Below, in pieces: positions 31,014-42,986 of a stretch of DNA of 64,000 bases. Each line of letters starts with the position of its first letter. Positions within the stretch are counted from its first letter, which is position 1. Source of the stretch: Ruegeria sp. 6PALISEP08 (GTDB taxonomy: Bacteria > Pseudomonadota > Alphaproteobacteria > Rhodobacterales > Rhodobacteraceae). The stretch covers positions 186,001 to 250,000 of the forward strand of contig NZ_LGXZ01000001.1 of NCBI RefSeq assembly GCF_001238295.1, in the 5' to 3' direction. The translations under genes and the position numbers were made by a program. The notes beneath the pieces are model-generated. The model was not told the origin of the DNA. It worked only from the letters and a program-made list of their open reading frames with translations, and ran no database searches.

Positions 31014-31250
31014 TTCCGCCATTCGGTTGACGCAGAACATCTCGGATCGCAGGGCGCGGATGTATTGTAGCGCGCCACGGTTTCTTGCAAATTTTGACAC
31101 GGAAGTTTGCAGCAACTCTAAACTCAGGCTGAAGTGAGCCCACTGCTGCCATTAATCGTGCTTTGGGACTTTGCTCATGCAGCAGGTCGCTAACAGCTGT
31201 TACCCGGACACTCGAAAAACAATCTGCCAATGCGCGAAGTGCGATTGATC
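31014..31250. other. Intergenic stretch without recognised genes
   Basis: Nothing convincing on either strand apart from the operator-like boxes at its left edge. It marks the passage from core genes to the accessory region. Confidence 0.4.
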
Positions 31251-31719
31251 CTACGGCTCAGGCGCGCGCCCCACCCGTATTACGCCTTCTTCTGTGTTTC
31301 GGACGAAATACTGAACCAAATTGCCACTTGGACCAAATAGTATTGCTTTGTCTCCAAAGAGACTTGAGCCGCCAAATCTGGCTTTGACAGTTTTTGTTTG
31401 TGGTCCCGGAATATCATTTGCCTCCGCACGGTTCCCGCCGGCATCACAGCTCACAAAGGAAATCAAAGCACGGCCAGATGAATCGACGGGAATATCCAGC
31501 TTTGTCGGTGTTACAAAAGACTTGTCAAAATCCGGCCCGCGCACAGTGCATTTTGCTGCAACCGATGCTCCGTTGACTTCTGCGCTGAAAGCAATGGCTC
31601 GTGTTTCTACGGCAGTAGGCGATGACAAAGAATCCTCGGGTTTAGGCTCAGGAGAATTTGAAACTGTTGTGGTGTTACACGCGGCCAGTACGACGCAGCC
31701 CAAAAAAAAAGGAACGCAT
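31251..31719 (-). pseudogene. Lipoprotein-like gene interrupted at a T9 tract
   Basis: Read leftward, ATG 31719 opens MRSFF and enters nine T residues (31702–31710). In the present frame it stops after 14 codons. Removing one T gives MRSFFLGCVVLAACNTTT, a bacterial lipoprotein signal with lipobox LAAC, continuous with the rest of the 150-codon frame (FSAEVNGASVAAKCTVRGPD, ILFGPSGNLVQYFVRN). The choices are a sequencing error in the homopolymer, slipped-strand phase variation, or a recent pseudogene. The mature part (about 145 residues) matches no family I recognise. Confidence 0.55.
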
Positions 31720-32036
31720 TGTGATATCCCGTATCCGATATTTTAGAGGTACTTACATACGGGGCATGTCCGGAGTGCAAGGTTGTTTTCATCCGCCCCC
31801 GAAACTGTTCGAAATCAGGACTAGCAACGACTGATACAAACTGAATCAGGGGTGCCAGGGATTGATCCAGCCATCATTAGCTGGATGCGCCGACTAGATG
31901 ATAAGAGCCCAAAGTAGCAGTTACTGTCAGTACTGCACTCAAGAGAAATAAATTTGCTCTGGCGGCCAAAGTTTCTGTTTTTGCTTTACGGATCAACCCA
32001 ATTCAAAGTTGTATTGGCTGTAGACTAACAATCGAA
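31720..32036. other. AT-rich intergenic stretch
   Basis: No gene recognised. Base composition is visibly more AT-rich than the flanking core genes; it separates the divergent lipoprotein-like and lyase-like genes and probably holds both promoters. Confidence 0.4.
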
Positions 32037-32846
32037 ATGAATGAGAGCTGGGATATGGATAGAACGATGTCGATGTTGCCAAGATTAATCACCGCGTTAA
32101 GCACGTTGGTCATTGTGTCCTTGCTTGCACTGCCGGTTGCGTCAGAAACAGTCGTCAAATCCGTCAAAGGAAAACAGTCGCCCAGAGATGTTATTGTCAG
32201 CGGCTTTCGAGGACTAGAACGAGAAAAATGGACGAACGAAAAAACTTACGGGATGCAAATTGTGAAAGACCCTCCCGGAGGAGGGTATAAAAAGGCTGTT
32301 CGTATGGAATTGCGCTACGGCGACTGTGGACAGGTTAAAGACTGGGACGACTGCAAGCAAAGAAACCAACGAGTAGAACTGACTAAGGAAAATGCCTTTA
32401 AAGCTGGTCAGACAAAAAAATATGCTTGGTCCATGTACTTACCAAAATCGTTTTCGACAGCAGGTTCAGAACAAATTGTTTTGACACAGTTTTCTATGAT
32501 GGGAGGTAAGTATCACCCCTTTCAATTTTATACTAAAAATGGGGGCTTGATGGCGCGTAAGCGGGTTGAAAGCGCAGACTGGAACTATGAAAGTTTGGTC
32601 AAAACAATCGTTCCAAGTTCACGTCTTCGAGGCCGCTGGCACAGAATTGAAGTCGATGCAAAATGGTCACTCAAGCCTGACGGAATTTTCCAAGTTAGAG
32701 TTGACGGAAAACTTGTGTACGATTGGAAGGGTGCAACTTTATCCGAACCGAAGCCGGGCAAGATAAAATTGGGCATGTATCGAATAAAGTTGAACTCGAA
32801 GGCGCCGCCAGTCGTGGCCTATTTCGCAGGTTTAATTGAAAAGTAA
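32037..32846 (+). CDS. Secreted polysaccharide-lyase-like protein (heparin-lyase/PL20-like fold)
   Basis: A 269-residue exported protein: an N-terminal signal (LITALSTLVIVSLLALPVAS) and then a predicted β-jelly roll. The order of motifs QRVELTKENAFKAGQTKKYAWSMYLPKSF, LTQFSMMGGKYHPFQFYTKNGGLMAR, and RGRWHRIEVDAKWSLKPDGIFQVRVDGKLV (cited as separate strands) recalls the Polysacc_lyase family of heparin lyase I and glucuronan lyase. Codon use is AT-rich against the neighbours, a sign of transfer. ATG 32037 or 32055 could be the start. The substrate, if any, would be an acidic polysaccharide; activity is unproven. Confidence 0.55.
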   Translation: MNESWDMDRTMSMLPRLITALSTLVIVSLLALPVASETVVKSVKGKQSPRDVIVSGFRGLEREKWTNEKTYGMQIVKDPPGGGYKKAVRMELRYGDCGQVKDWDDCKQRNQRVELTKENAFKAGQTKKYAWSMYLPKSFSTAGSEQIVLTQFSMMGGKYHPFQFYTKNGGLMARKRVESADWNYESLVKTIVPSSRLRGRWHRIEVDAKWSLKPDGIFQVRVDGKLVYDWKGATLSEPKPGKIKLGMYRIKLNSKAPPVVAYFAGLIEK

Positions 32847-33812
32847 TTTGCACGGCTGTCCTATTGAATTTAGTTGGTTGTAATTATTATTCCGGACGCT
32901 GACCGAAGGCAGTATGAATGTCGGTTTCGTCCGCATAGCTGCTGTCCAAGGCTCAAAAACACTGCATCTTTGATTAAAGTCCGCTTCCTGTGCATTGCCG
33001 CTGTCGCTGAGGCCTAGTTCTTCGCTAGCAGCGAACGGCAGCTCTGTGGCCAAGATGACAACGTTCTTGCCGCCCTCAATCGTTTGCAGCCTCTATCAAA
33101 TTGCCATACCCGGTATGAAACACAGTAGCGCAGGTGGAAGAAAACCGCGTGCAAGATCACGTCTTTCGGAAAATGCGCACCCTTAAATGAGAGCGTCACG
33201 GTATGCTCCTGTTATGTTCTAGTGCGCGCCACCAGAAATGCAGTCAACCTGACAGGTAGGGACAAAGTTTGCGACAGAACCTTGTCAAAGACCGCGATGT
33301 GGTCGAATGGGGTAACATAGTCATCGGATCTGAGGTCGGCGGCGTTTTAAGCAACCGAGATGATCCGCTCCTTGCTGTCTGTTTCATTCCAGGAGGCTTT
33401 GACGGTGTAGACGCCTCCGGGCCTGACATTCATCGTAACACGATAAGTGATTCCCAATCGGCTCATTGGCTGCGTTCAGGTGCAAGAATCGTAACGAGGG
33501 ACGGAGCGAGATTCTCGGCTCGACGAGTTTAGAGGCAAACTGTAATTGCGCCGGTGCTGTGTCTGAACCACTGCACCGCGAGGTGATCGAAACGACATGT
33601 TTTGGCCGCGCCCATTGGTGAGCTTATCCGCATATCACCTTGAATTCGTTTATCGGCTGCCACCAGCCTTGGCCGCAGGCGCGGCAAAAGCATCGAAGAG
33701 TGGCGGTTTCGCACAGGCACGAATCCGAAATGACCGGTTGCCGGGCGCCATCTTCGGGCACCAGCTTTCGTGACAAATGCCCGTTATTGGTGTATGGTTG
33801 AGAGTTATTAAG
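32847..33812. other. About 1 kb with no clear gene
   Basis: No frame on either strand looks like a conserved protein. One short leftward ORF (33347–33466, 39 codons) reads MSRLGITYRVTMNVRPGGVY and TVKASWNETDSKERIISVA and is compositionally protein-like, perhaps the tail of a lost gene. The rest appears to be decayed accessory DNA. Confidence 0.35.
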
Positions 33813-33871
33813 ATGTCGGAAACAGATCGAAATCTCGATCCATATGTTACGGCATTTGACGGGATTTTTTC

Positions 33872-36217
33872 GTGGAGAATGAATTTAGATACGCACCTGC
33901 AGCGGTGACGGTTGATGGGCTATTTGCAGTCCCGGTCAAAATTGAATCGGTCACAGCAACCTACGCGATTGATGCTGCTGCAAAGACCGCCTCCGCAACA
34001 GCAGAGATGGCGTTCACCTTGGGGTTGCATGACGGCTTTCCGGTCTTTGATCTCAGGCAGACGATTGCGTCCGCAACGCTCGACGGCGTAACAATTAGCC
34101 CTTCGGATATGGCGCATCACGACTTCGGCGGTGGCGTCAACGCCGAGATGCGCATTCTCGAACATTGGCTGATCGCAGGCACATCGCACCTGCTGAGCCT
34201 GGACTATGCGTTGCAGCAACCGGCGTCACCCAACTCCCGGGGCCTTGTCTGGGAGGCCGGATCGTCGCGCCTGTCATTCGATTTCTTCCTCAGTGATCTG
34301 AACCCGGCACGGTATCTGGAAAGCTGGCTGCCTTCGTCCATGCTGTGGGGGGCGTTTCCCGTCACGCTGGACATCTCGATGTCGGGCGCGCCCGCGCATG
34401 TGCTGATGTCGAACGGTGCCGTTTCCGAGTTGGGGACAAATCACTGGTCGATCGAATTTCCAGCCGATTTCGCACCCTGTTCGCATTTTTTGGTGATCGA
34501 GGCTGCGGACAGGATCACGACGCAAACGCAGAACACCATCCTGCCTGGTGGGCAGGCGGTTTCGATCGAGGTGGCAAGACGCACCAGCGTTAGCGTCGAT
34601 CTGGCATCCGGCGCCGCAAGCATCGCCGCGGATCTTGTAACCAATACCTCGCAAATCGGCCCCTACCGTCACGGCGGGCGTTACGTCGCCCTTCTGACGG
34701 ATCCCGGCTATCACAACATGGAATATGACGGGGCCACCACGACCAGCACCGGGGCGCTCTCGCACGAAGTTTTCCACAGTTGGTGGGCCCGCGGTCTGGT
34801 CCCGGCGCAGGGTCAGGACGGGTGGCTGGACGAGGCATGGACGAGTTACAACACTGGGGCGGGCGGGCCATCCGCGACTCCGCTGGATTTGGCGGACCCG
34901 CCGGTCACGCTGTGGCCGGGGAACCCTTGGGCGCGGACCACGCCGGGGGCGTCCTACGGGCATGGCGCCAGCGTCTTTTCGGGTATCGCCGCTGACATCG
35001 GGATCAATGCGCTGCAAAGTCATATGTCCGCGATCTATCAATCCGCGCAGCGACGCCACTACAACACCCCGGGGATCGAAGCTGAACTGATCCGCAGATC
35101 CGGGCATATGCCCATCGCGGACTACTTTGAGCGTTTTGTCTATGGCGGCGATACCGCCCAGCCTGGTGCAGCCAATCTGCACCTGCGCGATGCGTCTGAT
35201 GATACCGGTACCGAGCCTTATTCGGGGACCTTCTGGCTGTCGCCTGACGTGTGGGTGCGACAGGCCGAAGATGGCGGCACCAGCCCGCAAAGCCCGGAAT
35301 TCGGTCAGGACAACTGGCTTTATGCCCGGGTGAGAAATCGCGGTTCCGCAACCGCCCGGTCCTTCGTCGTGGGCTTCAAGCTGCAGGTCTGGGCGGGAAC
35401 CGAGTTCGTCTATCCGGGCGACTGGTTTCCACTGACCGGTGTGGCCGTCGGGTTCGATCTGGCACCGGGGGCGTCACAGATCGTGCACACCCGTTGGCCT
35501 GCGGGCGACATTCCGGCCGAAGGCACTCATGGCTGCCTGCTGGCCATGGCATGGTGTCTGGACGATCGGCCGGTTCCCGGACGGCATGTCTGGGAAGAGG
35601 ACACGCTGGCGCAGCGCAACATGACGGTTGTCGATCTGGCCCCCAATGAATGGGAACACTATGCCCTGCGCATCGGCAGCCGCTACCGGAAATTTGCGGA
35701 ATTTCACCGGCTGGAACTGCTGCGTTCACGCACCGCGCGCGCCGTCGAGGTGCAGCTCACCCATCGCGATCCTGCGCGGGTCGAGGCCTTGTTCCGCAGC
35801 GCCGAACGGCTGAAGACCGCCGATGCGCCGCACGCCGCAAAAGCGAAGAGTGCCATCCTGGATCCCGGACCCTTTCTGCTGGCCGGCGGATCTGCAACCC
35901 TGCGCCCGGCACCGGGATCAAGCCTTGCCTTCGTGAAGAAATCGCAGCTTTGGCCTGTGGGCGGCGCGCAGGGCGCGCGCCTGGTGAAATCCCGCGAGGG
36001 CGGGCTGGCCATCGCGTTCGATCCCGGGCCAAGGGCTGGCCTACTCATCGGGCTGTTGCCGGGGCAGGAGCATCACTTCCAGCTCTGTCTGCGCGCGCCA
36101 AAGACCCCCCCGAAAGGCGGTCGTATCGACCTCGTCCAAAGCGATCGCGAAGGCCGGGCAGTGGGTGGCGTGTCCTACGGCCTGGGAAACCCTGAAGAAA
36201 TGGAGCCGCGGCAATGA
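33872..36217 (+). CDS. M1-like zinc metallopeptidase with C-terminal β-rich module (first gene of novel operon)
   Basis: A 781-residue protein without signal peptide. Residues 1–260 look like the M1 N-terminal β-domain; NMEYDG (282–287) stands where GxMEN is expected. The zinc site His298-Glu299-Val-Phe-His302 and Glu321 (WLDEAWTSY) have the exact HEXXH-x18-E spacing of M1 aminopeptidases, followed by SYGHGASVFSGIAADIG. From about 445 a Trp-rich module begins (FWLSPDVWVRQAEDGG, LYARVRNRGSATA, EGTHGCLLAMAW, LAQRNMTVVDL), shared with the next two genes. GTG 33872 has a poor ribosome site; a 31-codon ORF from ATG 33813 in another frame may be its lost N-terminus. The stop overlaps the HAD gene (ATGA). 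Confidence 0.75.
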   Translation: MENEFRYAPAAVTVDGLFAVPVKIESVTATYAIDAAAKTASATAEMAFTLGLHDGFPVFDLRQTIASATLDGVTISPSDMAHHDFGGGVNAEMRILEHWLIAGTSHLLSLDYALQQPASPNSRGLVWEAGSSRLSFDFFLSDLNPARYLESWLPSSMLWGAFPVTLDISMSGAPAHVLMSNGAVSELGTNHWSIEFPADFAPCSHFLVIEAADRITTQTQNTILPGGQAVSIEVARRTSVSVDLASGAASIAADLVTNTSQIGPYRHGGRYVALLTDPGYHNMEYDGATTTSTGALSHEVFHSWWARGLVPAQGQDGWLDEAWTSYNTGAGGPSATPLDLADPPVTLWPGNPWARTTPGASYGHGASVFSGIAADIGINALQSHMSAIYQSAQRRHYNTPGIEAELIRRSGHMPIADYFERFVYGGDTAQPGAANLHLRDASDDTGTEPYSGTFWLSPDVWVRQAEDGGTSPQSPEFGQDNWLYARVRNRGSATARSFVVGFKLQVWAGTEFVYPGDWFPLTGVAVGFDLAPGASQIVHTRWPAGDIPAEGTHGCLLAMAWCLDDRPVPGRHVWEEDTLAQRNMTVVDLAPNEWEHYALRIGSRYRKFAEFHRLELLRSRTARAVEVQLTHRDPARVEALFRSAERLKTADAPHAAKAKSAILDPGPFLLAGGSATLRPAPGSSLAFVKKSQLWPVGGAQGARLVKSREGGLAIAFDPGPRAGLLIGLLPGQEHHFQLCLRAPKTPPKGGRIDLVQSDREGRAVGGVSYGLGNPEEMEPRQ

Positions 36218-37821
36218 CACCTCCCGTTCTGTATTTCGACCTGGGCAACACCCTGGTTCACGGGCCATCCGACAACCGGGTGCCGCTGCCCGACGCGGTC
36301 GCCACGATCGAGACGCTCTGGCAACGCGGCTACCGGATCGGGATTCTGTCCAACCAGCCGGTCGGGATGACGCAAGCGCTGATGATCGACAAGCTCAATG
36401 ACTACGGGCTGGACGCCGCAAAATTCGACGCGATCACGTTTTCCTCGGAATTTGATCCGCCCAAGAGCAAGCCGGACCCGGAAATCTTTGACCACGCGCT
36501 GAGCAAGGTTGGGTACACGGCGGGCAGCATACGCACGGTTTTCATCACCGAAACACTGAACCATATCGAGGCGGCGCGCAATCTTGGCTGGCGGGCGATC
36601 CACACCCCCTACAACGCCACCTGTACAACTGCCTCGGGGGAATGCGTCGAGGCACTGGACGATCTTCTCGACCTGTTTCCCCCGCTTGAGATCGACGTCT
36701 ATATGCGGGACAATTCAGGCGATGACGGAGACGAGCCGTCGAGCGGCAGTTTCTGGAATTCGCCGGACCTGTGGATTCGCAATCAGAACGATGGCGGCAC
36801 CGCGCATCAGAACCCGGAAGCCGGGACCGACAACTGGTTTCATACGCGGTTGCACAATCGCGGAGAAGGCATCGCACGTCTCGTGCTGGTCACGCACGCT
36901 GTTCAGGAATGGGCCGGAACGCAATTCGTGCACCCGAACGATTTCGTCCCGCATACCGCAATGATCGGGATACTCAATCTAGTGCCGGACGAGCCGCAGA
37001 TCGCGGTCGTCAAGTGGGAAGCGGACAATGTCCCGCCCGAGGGCACCCATGCCTGCTGGCTGTCCGCCGCCTATTTCACCGGGGACGCAATCGCCACAGG
37101 ATCTCATGTCTGGGACTCCAACAACCTCGGGCAGAAAAATCTCTCGGTTGTCGAGATGGCGCCGGGCGAGACTGCGGAAATGGCCTTTGTGATCGGCAAT
37201 CGCGCCGTGCTCACCTCCCGCCGCGTGGTTCTCGAGCTCTGGCAATCCGTCAAGGGCCCCATGCTGTCGGCCGCGATCCGCAGTCAAAGCGCCCCGGCGC
37301 TGGGCCGGGCGGTGCGGCGCAGCGGCATCTTCGCGCGTGTCGCACGATCCGCGCCGCCCAGGAAAAACGTCGGCCTGCGCTTTCTGACCGAAGCACGTGT
37401 GGAACTGACCGAACTGCTGGACGCGAGCAATGACACCGCCGTATTCGACCTCGCTCCGGGGTCCGAGATGACATTTCCGCCCGGAAAAACCGCTGAGAAG
37501 AAGCCGCGCGTATGGCCCGATATGCAGCTGACGGCGCGCCTGCGTAAGGATGCGAAAGGCAACGAAGAGGTTGTTTTTGATCGCGCCGCGTCCAGTGGCA
37601 TCGCGCTTGGGCTGCGCGAGTGCGAACTGTTGCCGGCCACATTGCGGCTGACCGCCCCGAAAGATGCCAGCGAGGGCGACCGGATCCGCGTCGATCTGGT
37701 CCAGCGCGATGATGATGGCACCGTGATCGGCGGCATCTCGGTCTCGGTCGTCATCAGGGCCCGCAAATCCCGCAAATCCCCCGCGAAGAGACGCTCCAAG
37801 ACTGCCCGCAAGAAGTCGTAA
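36214..37821 (+). CDS. HAD-family hydrolase fused to the shared β-rich module
   Basis: A 535-residue two-part protein without signal peptide. Residues 1–150 are a HAD phosphatase with no large cap: Asp9 in YFDLGNTL (the DLGN variant seen in YihX-like enzymes), ILSNQ (motif II Ser46), Lys86 in KSKPDPEIF, and an atypical motif IV FITETLNHIEA with Glu rather than Asp. Residues about 160–330 carry the same module as its neighbours (SPDLWIRNQNDGG, LHNRGEGIA, EGTHACWLSAAY, NNLGQKNLSVVEM). The last 19 residues are almost all Lys, Arg, Ser and Ala (RKSRKSPAKRR…), suggesting binding to a polyanion. Sits between two peptidase-like genes with a 4-bp overlap on the left. Confidence 0.75.
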   Translation: MTPPVLYFDLGNTLVHGPSDNRVPLPDAVATIETLWQRGYRIGILSNQPVGMTQALMIDKLNDYGLDAAKFDAITFSSEFDPPKSKPDPEIFDHALSKVGYTAGSIRTVFITETLNHIEAARNLGWRAIHTPYNATCTTASGECVEALDDLLDLFPPLEIDVYMRDNSGDDGDEPSSGSFWNSPDLWIRNQNDGGTAHQNPEAGTDNWFHTRLHNRGEGIARLVLVTHAVQEWAGTQFVHPNDFVPHTAMIGILNLVPDEPQIAVVKWEADNVPPEGTHACWLSAAYFTGDAIATGSHVWDSNNLGQKNLSVVEMAPGETAEMAFVIGNRAVLTSRRVVLELWQSVKGPMLSAAIRSQSAPALGRAVRRSGIFARVARSAPPRKNVGLRFLTEARVELTELLDASNDTAVFDLAPGSEMTFPPGKTAEKKPRVWPDMQLTARLRKDAKGNEEVVFDRAASSGIALGLRECELLPATLRLTAPKDASEGDRIRVDLVQRDDDGTVIGGISVSVVIRARKSRKSPAKRRSKTARKKS

Positions 37822-37847
37822 CAAACAGACTATGGGAGACATTTATC

Positions 37848-40800
37848 ATGAAAGAATTTTATCGTTCCGACCTGAAAGCGCATGTCCGCACCGATGACGG
37901 CAACCATGTCCGCAAGATCCGCCATAGCCAGCAATACTGGGAAAGTCCGGTTGGCGGCGGCGGGCTGGCGACGGCGACACGCTATCTGCGGGATCTGGCA
38001 AGCGTCTACGAAATCGCGACGCCACGCCTCGACAATCTTGAAACGAAGGTCACGTATCTCGATCCGAAGAAAGCCCCGGAAGACTACCGGCTGTCCGACG
38101 AAAAGGGGCGGTTCGACGGGCGCGTCTACGGGTTCTTCCAGACTTATCTCAACGTGCCGGTCTGGCGCGCCGGACTGCGTGTCACCATCAAGCAGGGACC
38201 CAACCGCGTCATCGCCTCGGAGGACACGACAGTGCCGGGCGTCGATGCCAAGCTGCCGTCGCGCAAGACCATAGACCGGTGGCGATCGGTGTTTGTGAAC
38301 GCGAATACCGTCACGACCCAGACCCATGCGCTGCGCGCGAACGCCGACCTGCGCACGACCACCTTCGGGCCTGCCGCGGGCGAGGCCGGAGGAGATGGCG
38401 AGCAGCCGGGCAGCGACCTGATCCGCAAGGCGCTTACCTTCCAGGAAAGCGGCGAGGATCAGCGGGTCACTAGCCGTTTGATCCAGGGGCGGTTCTGGAT
38501 CTACCGTTTTGATCCCGACCTGCGCCTCGATCCGCATCACCGGCACGATCCGAACCCGGTCATCCAGGAGGACGACGCGCCAGCCCGCCGCCGGAGCAAA
38601 CGCAGCGGGGGTGAGGTGTTCGATCACGGAATGCCGCAGCCCTTCGATCTGCCGGCCGTCCCCGACCGGATCAAGGATGGGTCGGATTACATGGTGGCCG
38701 AGGTCAATTTCGAGCTGACGGTCGGTGCGGATAAACGGGTCTGGCGCATGCTGGTCGAGCTGGAAAGCAACGCCGTTCTATACCTGCGCTCGCTTTCGGG
38801 CTGCGTCGACGGGCTGGTGTTCGAAGACGACCCGATCACCAAGACCGGCAACACCGCGCTGAACAGCGCGTCGAACAACGCAACGCTCAATCCCCAGAGG
38901 GACGACGTGACACTGCAAAACCTCGATCCGCCCTCGGGCGGCACGCAGTCGCTGATCGGCACTTATGCGGAAGTGACGCAGGTTGCCGGCCTCGATCCCG
39001 GAGAACCCACCGAAACCACAGGCACCGATTTCGACTATGATGCCCGGACGCATGATTTCGCGTCCGTGAGTGGCTATTTCCATGTCGACCGGATCTTCCG
39101 GACGATGGAGGATTTGGGCTTTACCGTGATCGGCGATTACATGGCGAATACGAGCTTTCCGATCCCCGTCGATATCCGGTACTGGTCGAACAATACGATC
39201 AACGCGCTCTGCAACGGCAACGGGTCGGGCGGCATCGGGTCCGTGGGCTACGGCCTGATGGATACCACCGATACCACGAATCCGCTGGGCCGCGCCGCCG
39301 ACCCCCGCGTGCACCTGCACGAAGTGCTGGGCCACGGCATCCTCTATGAAGGGGTCGACTTCGCCAATTTCGGCTTTTGTCACAGCGCCGGTGACGTTCT
39401 GTCGATGATCTATTTCGACCCGGACTCGAACTGCTGGGGCGTCGATGGCACCGCGGTCAACAAGCCGGGTGATCTCCGGTTCACCTATGTGCCATGGCAT
39501 CCGTCCCTGAACCGCCGGGCAGACCGGGACATCGCGGATGGCTGGGCCTGGAACGGCTCGCGCGATACCGGCGGCTATCCGTCCGAAGAGATACTGTCGA
39601 CGACGCTGTTCCGGTTCTATCGCGCCATTGGTGGTGATCATCCCAATCTGGGCCGCCGACAGTTTGCCTCGCGCATGTCGATGTATCTGATCATGCGCGC
39701 GATCGGGGACCTCACCTCGGGCACCAATCCCGCCTATGCGCGTGATTTCTGCGATCAACTGATGAGCACCGACGCGCTCAACTGGACCAGCGAGGGCGTC
39801 TTTGGTGGTGCCTATCACAAGGTGCTGCGCTGGTGTTTCGAACAGCAGGGCGAATATCAGACTCCGCTGGTGGTCGATGGCATCGCTCCGGACGGGACGA
39901 TAACGACTGCAGGTGATCCGCCCGATACCGATGTCTATATCGATGACGGGCGCGCCGGAGGGTATGACTTTCAGCATGTCCACTGGAACACCACGACGAT
40001 TTGGAACCGGCGCATGGCGGACGGGATCGAGGCCCACCAGGAACCGGCCCTGAACGAAGTGAATTACGCCTATGTGAAGATCAAGAACCGGGGCACGGCG
40101 CAGGCGCAGAACGTGGTTGTCTACGGCTATCACACGAAACCCGGGGCCGGGCTCAACTGGCCCGCTGATTTCGAGGCTTTCAGCACGCCGTCAGTCAATG
40201 CCGGCACGCTGGACGCGAACGATTCCGAAGAAAAGATCATCGGACCGTTCGATTGGACGCCGAACATCAACGCCTACGGTCATGATTGCATGCTGATAGT
40301 CGTGACCGCCGATGGCGATGCGTCGAATATCGACAATTTCACCGCCGGTGAAACCATCCCCGAATGGCGTCTTGTCCCCAACGACAACAATGTGGGTCAG
40401 CGAAACGTCAATCCGGTTCCGGGCGGAGGCGGCGAGCAGGGCCTGATGGCCGGGCTCGACAATGTGAGTTTCTGGGCGGGCAATCCCAACCCGGAACGCG
40501 GTCAGATGACCTTCGACATCCATCTGCCCAGACTTCTGCGTGATCGTGGCTGGCGGCTGGAGCTCGTCGGTGTGGGCGCGGGCTTTTCGCTGGCCTCGGG
40601 GGCCAAGCGCGAGGTGTTCATCAAACTGCATCCCGGACAGTCCTTCACGCGCGACTCGGTCGAAACGGCCTCGGACCGGGATATCCGCATTGATGTTCTG
40701 GCCAATGATGGGCTCGTCGGCGGCATGACCTATCGGCTCGACCCGGATATCAAACGGCCCTACAACGCCGACAAGCCCAAAGACAAGGATTGCCTTGACG

Positions 40801-40907
40801 AGGCGCAGCGCCTTGCGAAATGCCTCGGTATCGATCAGGACATCAGCAAGGTCTGCGTCAAGGAGATCGTGCTGGGTCTGAAGGTCAAGTCGGACGATTG
40901 CTGCTAG
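37848..40907 (+). CDS. Large HEXXGH metallopeptidase-like protein with shared β-rich module
   Basis: A 1019-residue protein without signal peptide. Residues about 88–130 (GRVYGFFQTYLNVPVWRAGL…) resemble an FTP-type propeptide of thermolysin/fungalysin proteases. The zinc motif is His491-Glu-Val-Leu-Gly-His496 (HLHEVLGHGILYEG), one residue longer than HEXXH and like the HEXXGH of dipeptidyl peptidase III (M49). FCHSAGDVLSMIYFD follows where a third ligand could lie (His512 or Asp516). Residues about 690–900 hold the shared module (VKIKNRGTAQAQNV, YGHDCMLIVVTADGD, NNVGQRNVNPV). The Cys-rich tail (KCLGIDQDISKVCVKE…DDCC) is unusual. It follows the HAD gene by 26 bp with GGGAG ahead of its ATG. 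Confidence 0.72.
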   Translation: MKEFYRSDLKAHVRTDDGNHVRKIRHSQQYWESPVGGGGLATATRYLRDLASVYEIATPRLDNLETKVTYLDPKKAPEDYRLSDEKGRFDGRVYGFFQTYLNVPVWRAGLRVTIKQGPNRVIASEDTTVPGVDAKLPSRKTIDRWRSVFVNANTVTTQTHALRANADLRTTTFGPAAGEAGGDGEQPGSDLIRKALTFQESGEDQRVTSRLIQGRFWIYRFDPDLRLDPHHRHDPNPVIQEDDAPARRRSKRSGGEVFDHGMPQPFDLPAVPDRIKDGSDYMVAEVNFELTVGADKRVWRMLVELESNAVLYLRSLSGCVDGLVFEDDPITKTGNTALNSASNNATLNPQRDDVTLQNLDPPSGGTQSLIGTYAEVTQVAGLDPGEPTETTGTDFDYDARTHDFASVSGYFHVDRIFRTMEDLGFTVIGDYMANTSFPIPVDIRYWSNNTINALCNGNGSGGIGSVGYGLMDTTDTTNPLGRAADPRVHLHEVLGHGILYEGVDFANFGFCHSAGDVLSMIYFDPDSNCWGVDGTAVNKPGDLRFTYVPWHPSLNRRADRDIADGWAWNGSRDTGGYPSEEILSTTLFRFYRAIGGDHPNLGRRQFASRMSMYLIMRAIGDLTSGTNPAYARDFCDQLMSTDALNWTSEGVFGGAYHKVLRWCFEQQGEYQTPLVVDGIAPDGTITTAGDPPDTDVYIDDGRAGGYDFQHVHWNTTTIWNRRMADGIEAHQEPALNEVNYAYVKIKNRGTAQAQNVVVYGYHTKPGAGLNWPADFEAFSTPSVNAGTLDANDSEEKIIGPFDWTPNINAYGHDCMLIVVTADGDASNIDNFTAGETIPEWRLVPNDNNVGQRNVNPVPGGGGEQGLMAGLDNVSFWAGNPNPERGQMTFDIHLPRLLRDRGWRLELVGVGAGFSLASGAKREVFIKLHPGQSFTRDSVETASDRDIRIDVLANDGLVGGMTYRLDPDIKRPYNADKPKDKDCLDEAQRLAKCLGIDQDISKVCVKEIVLGLKVKSDDCC

Positions 40908-41014
40908 CATCTGTATTTCTCAGACGTTCAGAGTGGACCGTTTTTGCTGAGATTTGAGGAGAGGGTGTTGTCACGTTAATTTCCGGTCGACCAAGCAATG
41001 CTGATGCTTAGGTT
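40908..41014. other. Gap between the peptidase operon and the IS6 remnant
   Basis: No gene and no clear intrinsic terminator. Any IS6 terminal inverted repeat that once closed the element here is not recognisable. Confidence 0.35.
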
Positions 41015-41500
41015 TCAAGCTGCTCGGGTGGCTGCATTCCAGACGCCATATGCCTCGAGACGGTGGTATCGAAGTGTTGAGGCGGAGAGGCGGCGAGCAG
41101 GAACGCTGATGCAATTTCAGATGGTTGAATGGGTCGCCACGAACCTCCGAAGTCCGCCTGGAAACCGATTCCCTTGTATCGCTCACTCTCGCTTTCGGAA
41201 CGGCAAGTGGCTGTTTTCAGCGCGGTTGTTTAGGCCCTTGTGCGACCAATGATCCAGGCCCGGGGCGACCTCTCGCTTGGCAGCACTATACGACCTTGGC
41301 TTGTCGGTGATGATACGTTTGGGAATGAAGCCGCGGCTCTTCATCAAACGCCGCAACAACCGATTTGCTGCCCGTTTGTCCCGTTTCGGTTGGAGGATTT
41401 CGTTCAGCACGACGCCATGCTGATCGACCGCACGCCATAGCCAATACTTGCAACCTGAAATTCTCACGGCAACTTCATCCAGATGCCGGATATCAGGCAA
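41015..41500 (-). pseudogene. IS6-family transposase, C-terminal remnant with two stop codons
   Basis: One leftward frame reads HLDEVAVRISGCKYWLWRAVDQHG, then KRIITDKPRSYSAAKRE, SHKGLNNRAENSHLPFRKRE and, past a stop, AIQGNRFPGGLRRFVATHSTI and ISVPARRLSASTLRYHRLEA, which is the DDE transposase C-terminal two-thirds of the IS6/IS240 group. In-frame TGA codons at 41183–41185 and 41117–41119 interrupt it, both at positions where Arg (CGA) would suit. The N-terminal third is missing, replaced by phage tail DNA. The element is dead. Confidence 0.82.
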
Positions 41501-41870
41501 AAGGCCCGCGTTGCGTCAGCGCGTCTTTGGTCGTGGCGACGAAGAACTTCCAATCGCAGCGGGCGCGGACTTCGCCCAGCATGTCCGTCGCCTTCGCGTC
41601 GATTGTAAGGGTGGCCGGGTCGAAGTCGCCAGACCGGTCATCGACCACAAAACGGCCCATCGACACCAGATTGCCGGTAAAGCCCATTGCCATCTCCAGC
41701 GCCGCGCCGGTCGGGGGCAGGGCCAACTGAAAGTCATGGTTGTCCACGCGGAACTCTGCGGTGTCAGACTTGGACCCGGCTTTGTCAGTGATCGTCATAC
41801 TGATCAGACGATCCTGAAATGATGCCGTGACATCGGTGCCGTCTGCGAGGATACGAAAGTCGATTTCCAT
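41493..41870 (-). pseudogene. Phage late-control protein D (P2 gpD-like), truncated
   Basis: The 125-codon frame (DFRILADGTDVTASFQDRLI, SDTAEFRVDNHDFQLALPPT, VSMGRFVVDDRSGDFDPATL, TIDAKATDMLGEVRA) is the N-terminal part of P2 gpD, the hub protein of contractile tails, normally over 300 residues. It is cut off at the junction with the IS6 remnant near 41500. It follows the gpX gene by three bases, as in P2-like phages. Confidence 0.8.
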
Positions 41871-41873
41871 GCC

Positions 41874-42077
41874 TCAACCCCAAAGCCGTTTTGGTGTCCT
41901 GACCGGATCTTGCTGAACAACCGGGAGGGTGATCACCAGCCCCTTCGGCAGGACCGGCCCCATTGCTGCCAGGCCGGGGTTGGCTTCGTAGACGACAATG
42001 GCGAAATCCTCGCGGCCGTAATGAGCCTTGCAGATTTCATCTACCATGCCGCCGTCGATGGTTCGGTACGTTGTCAC
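41874..42077 (-). CDS. Phage tail protein X (P2 gpX-like)
   Basis: A 67-residue protein (TIDGGMVDEICKAHYGREDF, YEANPGLAAMGPVLPKGLVITLP split across two strands) with the LysM-like layout of P2 gpX, which caps or joins the tail spike region. GTG 42077 overlaps the gpU stop (GTGA). It is intact but sits in a broken tail cluster, so it is unlikely to be useful on its own. Confidence 0.8.
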   Translation of the reverse strand: MTTYRTIDGGMVDEICKAHYGREDFAIVVYEANPGLAAMGPVLPKGLVITLPVVQQDPVRTPKRLWG

Positions 42078-42505
42078 AGAATACCCCCGATCAAACCTGT
42101 GAGGCCCTGTGCATCCGGGCCATAGGATTTTGACGTCAGAAAGAATTCGATCTGGCGCGGGGCCCCGTCAGGCATGAAGTAGCTTTTGCGTTCCTCGACC
42201 TGAACAATCACCCAGCGCTTTCAGACCCCACCCAACCTGTCGACCATCATCAACAGCATCTTCAAAGCTGCCTGCGCCCGCATCAACTCTACCTGCCGCA
42301 AACCACCTTTGAAATGCACGTAAATGACCCCTTCAATGGTGATTTGCTGAGCGCGTTGGCCCAAGTATTGCAGGGCGGCTTCCCGCCCGATCCGGTTGAC
42401 CTCGGTCCAGCGATGCCCGGCACTTCGGGCCATCTTTTGATAGGCCCCGTTTGACATGTCAAACCGGAAAACACCGAGCGCCATCATCACACCGCCAAAC
42501 TGCAT
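42074..42505 (-). pseudogene. Phage tail protein U (P2 gpU-like) with internal stop
   Basis: Reads MMALGVFRFDMSNGAYQKMA, HRWTEVNRIGREAALQYLGQ, ITIEGVIYVHFKGG, then a TGA at 42221–42223 (codon 95), and continues in the same frame as KRWVIVQVEERKSYFMPDGA and PRQIEFFLTSKSYG. This matches gpU of P2-like tails across the stop, so the gene is nonsense-mutated, not shortened by design. CGA or TGG to TGA would explain it. Confidence 0.82.
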
Positions 42506-42726
42506 CAGTAATCCACTCGGTCATGTAGATCCGCGTTCCGCTTTTGTTTGAGGCGCTCAATCTGGTCTCGCACCATGCGCGCTATCTCTGCCGGATCGGT
42601 ACCTGGCGGTGGTGCGATCGTGATGGTGATCGTGTCGCCACCACGCACGCCCTGGAGCCCACCAGACAGAGTTGAGATCGGTGGTCGGCTGTCGATCATA
42701 CCCGACAGCTCGCTTTCCCGACCGAG
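42505..42726 (-). pseudogene. Phage tail tape-measure protein, C-terminal fragment
   Basis: About 73 codons remain: ELSGMIDSRPPISTLSGG, then DTITITIAPPPGTDPAEIAR and MVRDQIERLKQKRNADLHD. The IT-APPGTDP-x-x-IA-x-x-VR pattern is the typical C-terminus of P2-like tape-measure proteins (gpT). All of the long upstream part is gone. It lies directly before gpU, as in P2. Confidence 0.72.
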
Positions 42727-42986
42727 TTAAACCAACAAATCCATCATCGGCACGAGTGACAAGTGCGCCTCATACGGCTTGTTTAATTAGGTATTGCGGC
42801 ACTCAAGAGGGATTGCAGTATTTGGTGTCACAATTTTTTGAGCCGAAGCGTAGTCGCCCATTTTAACGGTTTTTGAAAACCATTATGGTTCAAGAAACTT
42901 TTAGGGAGGTGCTTGGCGATGAGCCCTATTTTACAACGCCCTTCCGGCTTCTTCCGGTTTCCCGCAATAACAAGTGTCACACAACA
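42727..42986. other. Right edge of the accessory region
   Basis: No gene seen. Short inverted repeats GGTTTT/AAAACC and AACCATTATGGTT lie near 42861–42892, possibly a transcription stop or a scar of the lost prophage end. No attachment site is recognised. Confidence 0.35.

Follow-up and report, generated by a model that had tools for sequence, protein, structure and literature searches.

Type IX tails and dockerins are sorting or docking modules, in which one module is found on many different enzymes, and the enzymes that carry them also have Sec signal peptides. In this paper we looked at an operon of three genes in Ruegeria sp. 6PALISEP08, each of which joins a different enzyme to a related C-terminal module: an M1-fold aminopeptidase, a HAD hydrolase and an endopeptidase with the fold of the M36 fungalysins. 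The operon is located in a window of 64,000 nucleotides (contig NZ_LGXZ01000001.1, positions 186,001 to 250,000 of the forward strand; coordinates below count from the first letter of this window). We tentatively propose that a mobile team of endopeptidase, aminopeptidase and phosphatase, joined by the module, dismantles a phosphorylated protein; that these three enzyme roles form a team at all we consider quite probable. An earlier note, made from the letters of this DNA, knew of no named system with such a composition, and a literature search that covered titles and the openings of abstracts returned no description of such an operon.

The three genes are found on the forward strand at 33872-36217, 36214-37821 and 37848-40907, with a 4-bp overlap followed by a 26-bp gap, and on re-reading these values were exactly as the earlier note gave them. 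Gene 1 starts with GTG and encodes 781 amino acids, with the aminopeptidase in residues 1-428 and the module in residues ~435-771 (35174-36184), where a CARDB-like domain is followed by a second β domain. Its predicted structure has the catalytic fold of peptidase family M1 (e.g., the two-domain M1 enzyme of Deinococcus) and its sequence contains the HEXXH-x18-E motif, with the M1 catalytic residues kept in 85 of 85 aligned rows, while its score is below the Pfam gathering score for M1 (13.6 vs 27.7 bits). The Glu of the gene 1 MEY motif sits where M1 enzymes have their exopeptidase motif. Gene 2 (535 amino acids) has a HAD domain in residues 1-155 that matches PF00702 (E 2.6e-9; 38.2 vs a gathering score of 26.4 bits), followed by the module (36694-37821). 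As in HAD phosphatases, the alignment shows the nucleophile Asp and the motif II Ser to be kept and the motif III Lys to be present; motif I has the form DxG in all 14 aligned HAD rows, so that the canonical DxDx[TV] is not matched.

Gene 3 encodes a predicted leaderless pro-endopeptidase of 1019 amino acids. A propeptide-like N-terminal region (residues 1-317; 37848-38798) is followed by the catalytic domain (residues 320-695; 38805-39932), a CARDB-like domain that is the shared part of the module (residues 690-857; 39915-40418), a second β domain and, after a conserved tail, a Cys-Cys end (40902-40907, forward strand) that is also found in many aligned relatives. The structure was predicted with a pLDDT (predicted local distance difference test) of 82.5, and its catalytic part has the M36 fungalysin fold. 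A structure search with this part returned M36 and M4 structures, although families that do not appear on the VIA structure-match lists are not thereby excluded; a viral fold library gave low TM-scores (template modelling scores) throughout. The zinc site consists of HEVLGH (residues 491-496) and HSAGD (residues 512-516; together 39318-39395), and H491, E492, G495, H496, H512 and D516 are each present in 77 of 77 aligned rows. In the alignment, HSAGD falls on EG[FY]GD, the stretch of canonical M36 enzymes in which their third-ligand Glu is located; the six canonical M36 relatives with the module all show HEYGH together with EG[FY]GD. Gene 3 also matches the HEXXGH motif of peptidase M49, a family that the earlier note had suggested; this assignment was dropped in favour of M36 on account of the fold and of the alignment with the canonical M36 zinc site. 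No Pfam family was matched up to an E value of 1 (PF02128 included) and no NCBIfam family either, and a search at E 0.001 placed 594 of 7992 scored candidates in the gene 3 group. Gene 3 defines a large group with an unusual zinc site.

That one module is found on different enzymes, as the earlier note proposed, was borne out by several comparisons. In a search of the own genome, gene 2 is 38% identical to gene 1 over residues 157-511 (E 1.5e-58) and 32% identical to gene 3 (E 3e-6). A profile-profile comparison of the gene 3 C-terminal region with the module of genes 1 and 2 gave a probability of 99.2% (E 1e-19), and the control, the gene 3 catalytic region against the module, gave 0.2%. The first, CARDB-like part, for which the CARDB domain (PF07705) is among the closest known, is clearly common, whereas the second part (gene 3 residues 860-1000) matches weakly (probability 46%, E 2e-4). 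Each protein has three or four of the four motifs that had been listed for the module, a count reached by none of 5000 shuffles of each; yet SPD[VL]W[VI]R is confined to genes 1 and 2 and [NL]x[GA]Q[RK]N has no strict match in gene 1. The own genome holds three copies of the module, all within the operon, and none was found in the other 397 of 398 sampled genomes of the phylum, where up to five candidates were scored in each; the module search also covered 41 of 47 genome entries. Elsewhere, leaderless peptidases of the canonical M36 type and an M14 carboxypeptidase also end in the module. These enzymes fit the suggestion, made in the earlier note, that the module is a common address or scaffold, and we give about equal weight to its putting all three proteins at one target or assembly and to its doing something else.

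One observation on the module stands on its own: at L058:14742-16361 (reverse strand), ~2 kb from a gene 3 relative and beside a phospholipase C-like gene, it is found on a Gly-rich, Cys/His-rich protein.

The absence of leaders agrees with the sequence upstream of the starts. An in-frame stop is present 15 bases upstream of the start of gene 1 and 21 bases upstream of that of gene 2, and no ATG, GTG or TTG occurs among the 44 open codons that precede gene 3. A hydropathy screen of gene 3 proteins and gene 1 relatives (at least 1.6 in a 15-residue window within the first 60 residues) retrieved 0 of 120 listed gene 3 proteins, the own protein included, and 21 of 120 gene 1 relatives, of which the six highest resemble M1-domain β strands rather than leaders. 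One possible option is that these are cytosolic enzymes that mature or recycle a specific, e.g., phosphorylated, peptide. The leaderless window proteins and gene 3 relatives would fit such intracellular processing, as would the best Foldseek match of gene 1, which is EryP, a lanthipeptide peptidase (other M1 enzymes follow closely, and EryP does not come first in the VIA order). However, a propeptide followed by M36 and CARDB domains is the architecture of extracellular, secreted peptidases, six of the 14 partner histidine phosphatases examined (described below) carry a hydrophobic segment near the N-terminus, which would suit an anchored or exported protein, and no precursor or biosynthetic gene was noticed beside the cassette, where no search was aimed at one; we therefore regard this option as unlikely. 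The leaderless proteins and the secreted-type make-up of gene 3 remain in tension, and the place of action can be suggested only with caution. The non-Sec export that the earlier note had in mind is favoured only indirectly, by the gene 3 architecture and by the hydrophobic segments of the histidine phosphatases.

Evidence for a team comes from the neighbours of gene 3 in other genomes. We analyzed 78 gene 3 loci, taken from the best 80 of 138 relative-encoding stretches in a scan with one genome per species, and searched for partners by tblastn up to 10 kb on each side of gene 3, with some contigs ending earlier. These loci span at least 14 phyla, and one of them is from an archaeal metagenome-assembled genome. 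An M1 gene is near gene 3 in seven loci, an M28 gene in 16, a histidine phosphatase in 15 and a HAD gene in three (L030, L034 and L064, the last below the Pfam cut-off), and the partners that were tested were confirmed by Pfam. In 17 of the 78 loci both roles are filled, the aminopeptidase by M1 or M28 and the phosphatase by HAD or histidine phosphatase, and in six loci one role only, which agrees with the earlier expectation of groupings conserved in unrelated genomes. Except in the cyanobacterial L028, every M28 gene shares the strand of gene 3 and either adjoins it or is separated from it by a single gene (15 of 16; the L088 match covers a short M28 piece only), and every histidine phosphatase belongs to the same gene run (14 of 15). 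All four pairings are represented: M1 and HAD in the window, L030, L034 and L122, M1 and histidine phosphatase in L026, and M28 and histidine phosphatase in L033, L076, L090 and others. The roles can even be fused, with HAD and M28, the fourth pairing, in one protein directly upstream of gene 3 in L064, a Streptomyces, and HAD and M1 in nine aligned proteins. The L064 fusion aligns with the M28 family across both halves, but only from its residue 100, and a direct comparison of the HAD and M28 N-terminal profiles was weak (probability 6%, E 0.006); as a suggestion from sequence, the M28 proteins may hold a degenerate HAD.

The genomes of 45 of the 78 loci were searched, and eight of them have an M1-type gene, which adjoins gene 3 in seven of them, counting the truncated M1 of L020 and the module-less M1 of L028. 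A sample of the family (295 genomes) has a gene 3 match in ten genomes and an M28 of the L090 type in three, in all three within ~650 bp of gene 3; a gene 1 search of the 398 genomes of the phylum found the own genome only. Twenty of 24 gene 2 relatives, the window being one of the twenty, are on contigs of the same size as those of gene 1 or gene 3 relatives, which is an indirect sign of linkage, and a canonical M36 with module (P0290) and an M1 with module (P0186) are both on contigs of 20682 bases. Two of the loci deserve a separate description. The cyanobacterial locus (L028:869-12904) has a histidine phosphatase, M28, canonical M36, module-less M1 and gene 3 within ~12 kb. In Paracoccus salsus (L020:8748-13041), where gene 3 is 81% identical, the M1 match ends at about residue 359 and is followed by the last 45 module positions, with no HAD match, and the locus resembles a reduced cassette.

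The recurrence of the three roles with unrelated enzyme families, sometimes fused, together with a module that is nearly confined to the set, argues for a team over chance company. In the mechanism that we propose, gene 3, with its own propeptide-like region, would open a phosphorylated protein or peptide, gene 2 would remove the phosphate and gene 1 would trim the resulting pieces, while the module (the CARDB-like immunoglobulin-type domain and the second β domain) would gather all three at one target or assembly. Breakdown of a phosphoprotein is suggested because it is the simplest nameable job that needs all three roles; a phosphorylated substrate as such is nevertheless doubtful. A wider version of the proposal is rather unlikely: that a dedicated module gathers leaderless M1, M14, M36 and HEXXGH M36-like peptidases and a phosphatase into one particle or non-Sec export route, where they act jointly on phosphorylated protein targets, as an undescribed mobile system of bacteria and at least one archaeal metagenome-assembled genome.

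Several results weigh against the team and its task. Gene 3 has none of the above partners in 55 of the 78 loci, and seven of the ten gene 3 genomes in the family sample are without the L090-type M28, which indicates that gene 3 can do without partners; in one genome (G042) M1 is not on the contig of gene 3. Module-like stretches appear on a Photobacterium plasmid metalloprotease (28% identity, E 2e-7) and, weakly and over 12% of the query, on the M43-type P0314, which has a leader and a type IX tail, and the L058 protein with the module has no known enzyme domain and is thus outside the enzyme set. In the histidine phosphatase and M28 partners described by Pfam, no module was noticed. Most HAD enzymes have a second Asp in motif I, and the Gly at this position makes the phosphatase activity of gene 2 less than certain. 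As for the substrate, nothing in these data shows a phosphorylated one.

The number of independent events was evaluated on a tree of 64 gene 3 proteins. The window is found in a supported clade of eight, all of whose genomes have M1, and a supported clade of 12 has an M28 match in every locus, while L027, L033 and L064 branch separately. The aminopeptidase label changes at least five times on this tree and the phosphatase label six times, but a coupled-gain test of the two was not significant (five independent pairs, median p 0.125); the partner pattern rests on few events, though with unrelated enzyme families. The earlier note would have given up a system if the homologues were almost never adjacent elsewhere: this is not the case in the M1- and M28-bearing clades, whereas gene 3 itself is mostly partnerless. 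Such results raise the question of whether the module is only a sticky immunoglobulin-like domain and the peptidase genes co-travel merely on the same mobile DNA. The partnerless loci, the coupled-gain test, the module-like stretches on a few other proteins and the insertion sequence (IS) remnants that bound the cassette would all be expected in such a loose collection. Yet the module is rare outside the set, and the same three roles return through non-homologous families and fusions, a pattern not expected from joint travel alone, and we find this explanation quite improbable.

The mobility of the cassette, on which the team and a loose collection agree, is well seen in the window. In 24 sister loci that were fetched, both flanks of the island are found together in 22, with gaps of 0 to ~200 bp (2 bp in L127), and the other two aligned only downstream. 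The sequences at 31059 and 42987 thus adjoin in the sister Ruegeria genomes and the operon is part of an 11.9-kb insertion (31060-42986). IS6-family transposase remnants, both on the reverse strand, flank the operon upstream (33023-33281, with 80% identity over 173 bp to the IS that precedes the G001 triplet) and downstream (41120-41500; PF13610, E 7e-25 for the open reading frame at 41183-41500). In G001, the closest related genome in which this triplet occurs, it is located elsewhere and the equivalent site is empty. The three genes have a G+C content of 61-63%, the rest of the island 47-55% and the chromosome beside it 58%. Window gene 3 has an identity of 69% with a Nitrospira protein and of 64% with its counterpart in the Ruegeria congener. 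By tree path its nearest row is from Burkholderiales, and the two Ruegeria rows pair with a support of 84. Two gene 3 relatives are plasmid-borne, one in Paracoccus and one in Mesorhizobium, with both plasmids rated non-mobilizable, and a gene 1 search of plasmids gave module-like stretches only. Viral contigs scanned with the gene 3 and gene 1 alignments contain no relative, and the idea of viral cargo was dropped; the open reading frame at 41493-41870, which looked tail-like and might have been a phage link, gives nothing in Pfam. The same island holds a polysaccharide lyase gene (32037-32846, forward strand; PF14099, E 1.4e-23).

Another question that is raised by a patchy and mobile cassette is whether it acts in conflicts, with zymogen-activated peptidases that execute immunity or antagonism and a phosphatase that resets or disarms the signal. 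Eight Rhodobacterales loci (L073, L078, L080, L083, L084, L086, L088 and L090) have a subtilisin-trypsin protein on the opposite strand upstream of gene 3, with a trypsin-AAA protein in seven of them and an AAA/STAND-like NTPase in six. This gene set beside gene 3 is a possible conflict system in its own right. Single neighbours within ~4 kb of gene 3 are a CHAT protein (L055), a glutamine deamidase (L032), a phospholipase C (L058) and, together in L064, a trypsin and an endonuclease I. However, seven of the eight subtilisin-trypsin loci are in one supported clade of the tree, which does not include L084, and therefore count as few events. In ten window open reading frames around the operon Pfam gives no subtilisin-trypsin, NTPase or effector-associated neighbour, the scanned viral contigs hold no relative, and none of the three genes fits a PADLOC model; the sole PADLOC match among ten proteins is the L026 histidine phosphatase (PDC-M06B, E 7.6e-5). 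A role as conflict effector accordingly has a low probability, and the team of endopeptidase, aminopeptidase and phosphatase is the reading that we prefer.

This team is of interest since its enzymes are built as if for extracellular work, yet are leaderless and carry one common tag, which makes a testable case: if the tag is an address, it would represent a new targeting route or scaffold for bacterial proteins. Endopeptidase, aminopeptidase and phosphatase are paired repeatedly, with enzymes of unrelated families, and this suggests that they serve a shared biochemical task, as yet unnamed. By comparison with the known families, gene 1 differs from M1 in having the module in place of the helical C-terminal domain of many M1 enzymes, and gene 2 differs from the HAD phosphatases by DLGNT as motif I and by the joining of HAD to the module (in relatives, to M1 or M28). 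Gene 3 differs from M36 by HEXXGH in place of HEXXH, by His512 in place of the third-ligand Glu (as aligned), and by having neither a signal peptide nor a Pfam model match. With type IX tails and dockerins the operon has in common one module on many different enzymes, although a Pfam scan of the three genes gave no sorting-tail or dockerin family and no direct sequence comparison was made; the difference is that the Sec signal peptide of such enzymes is absent from all three operon proteins.

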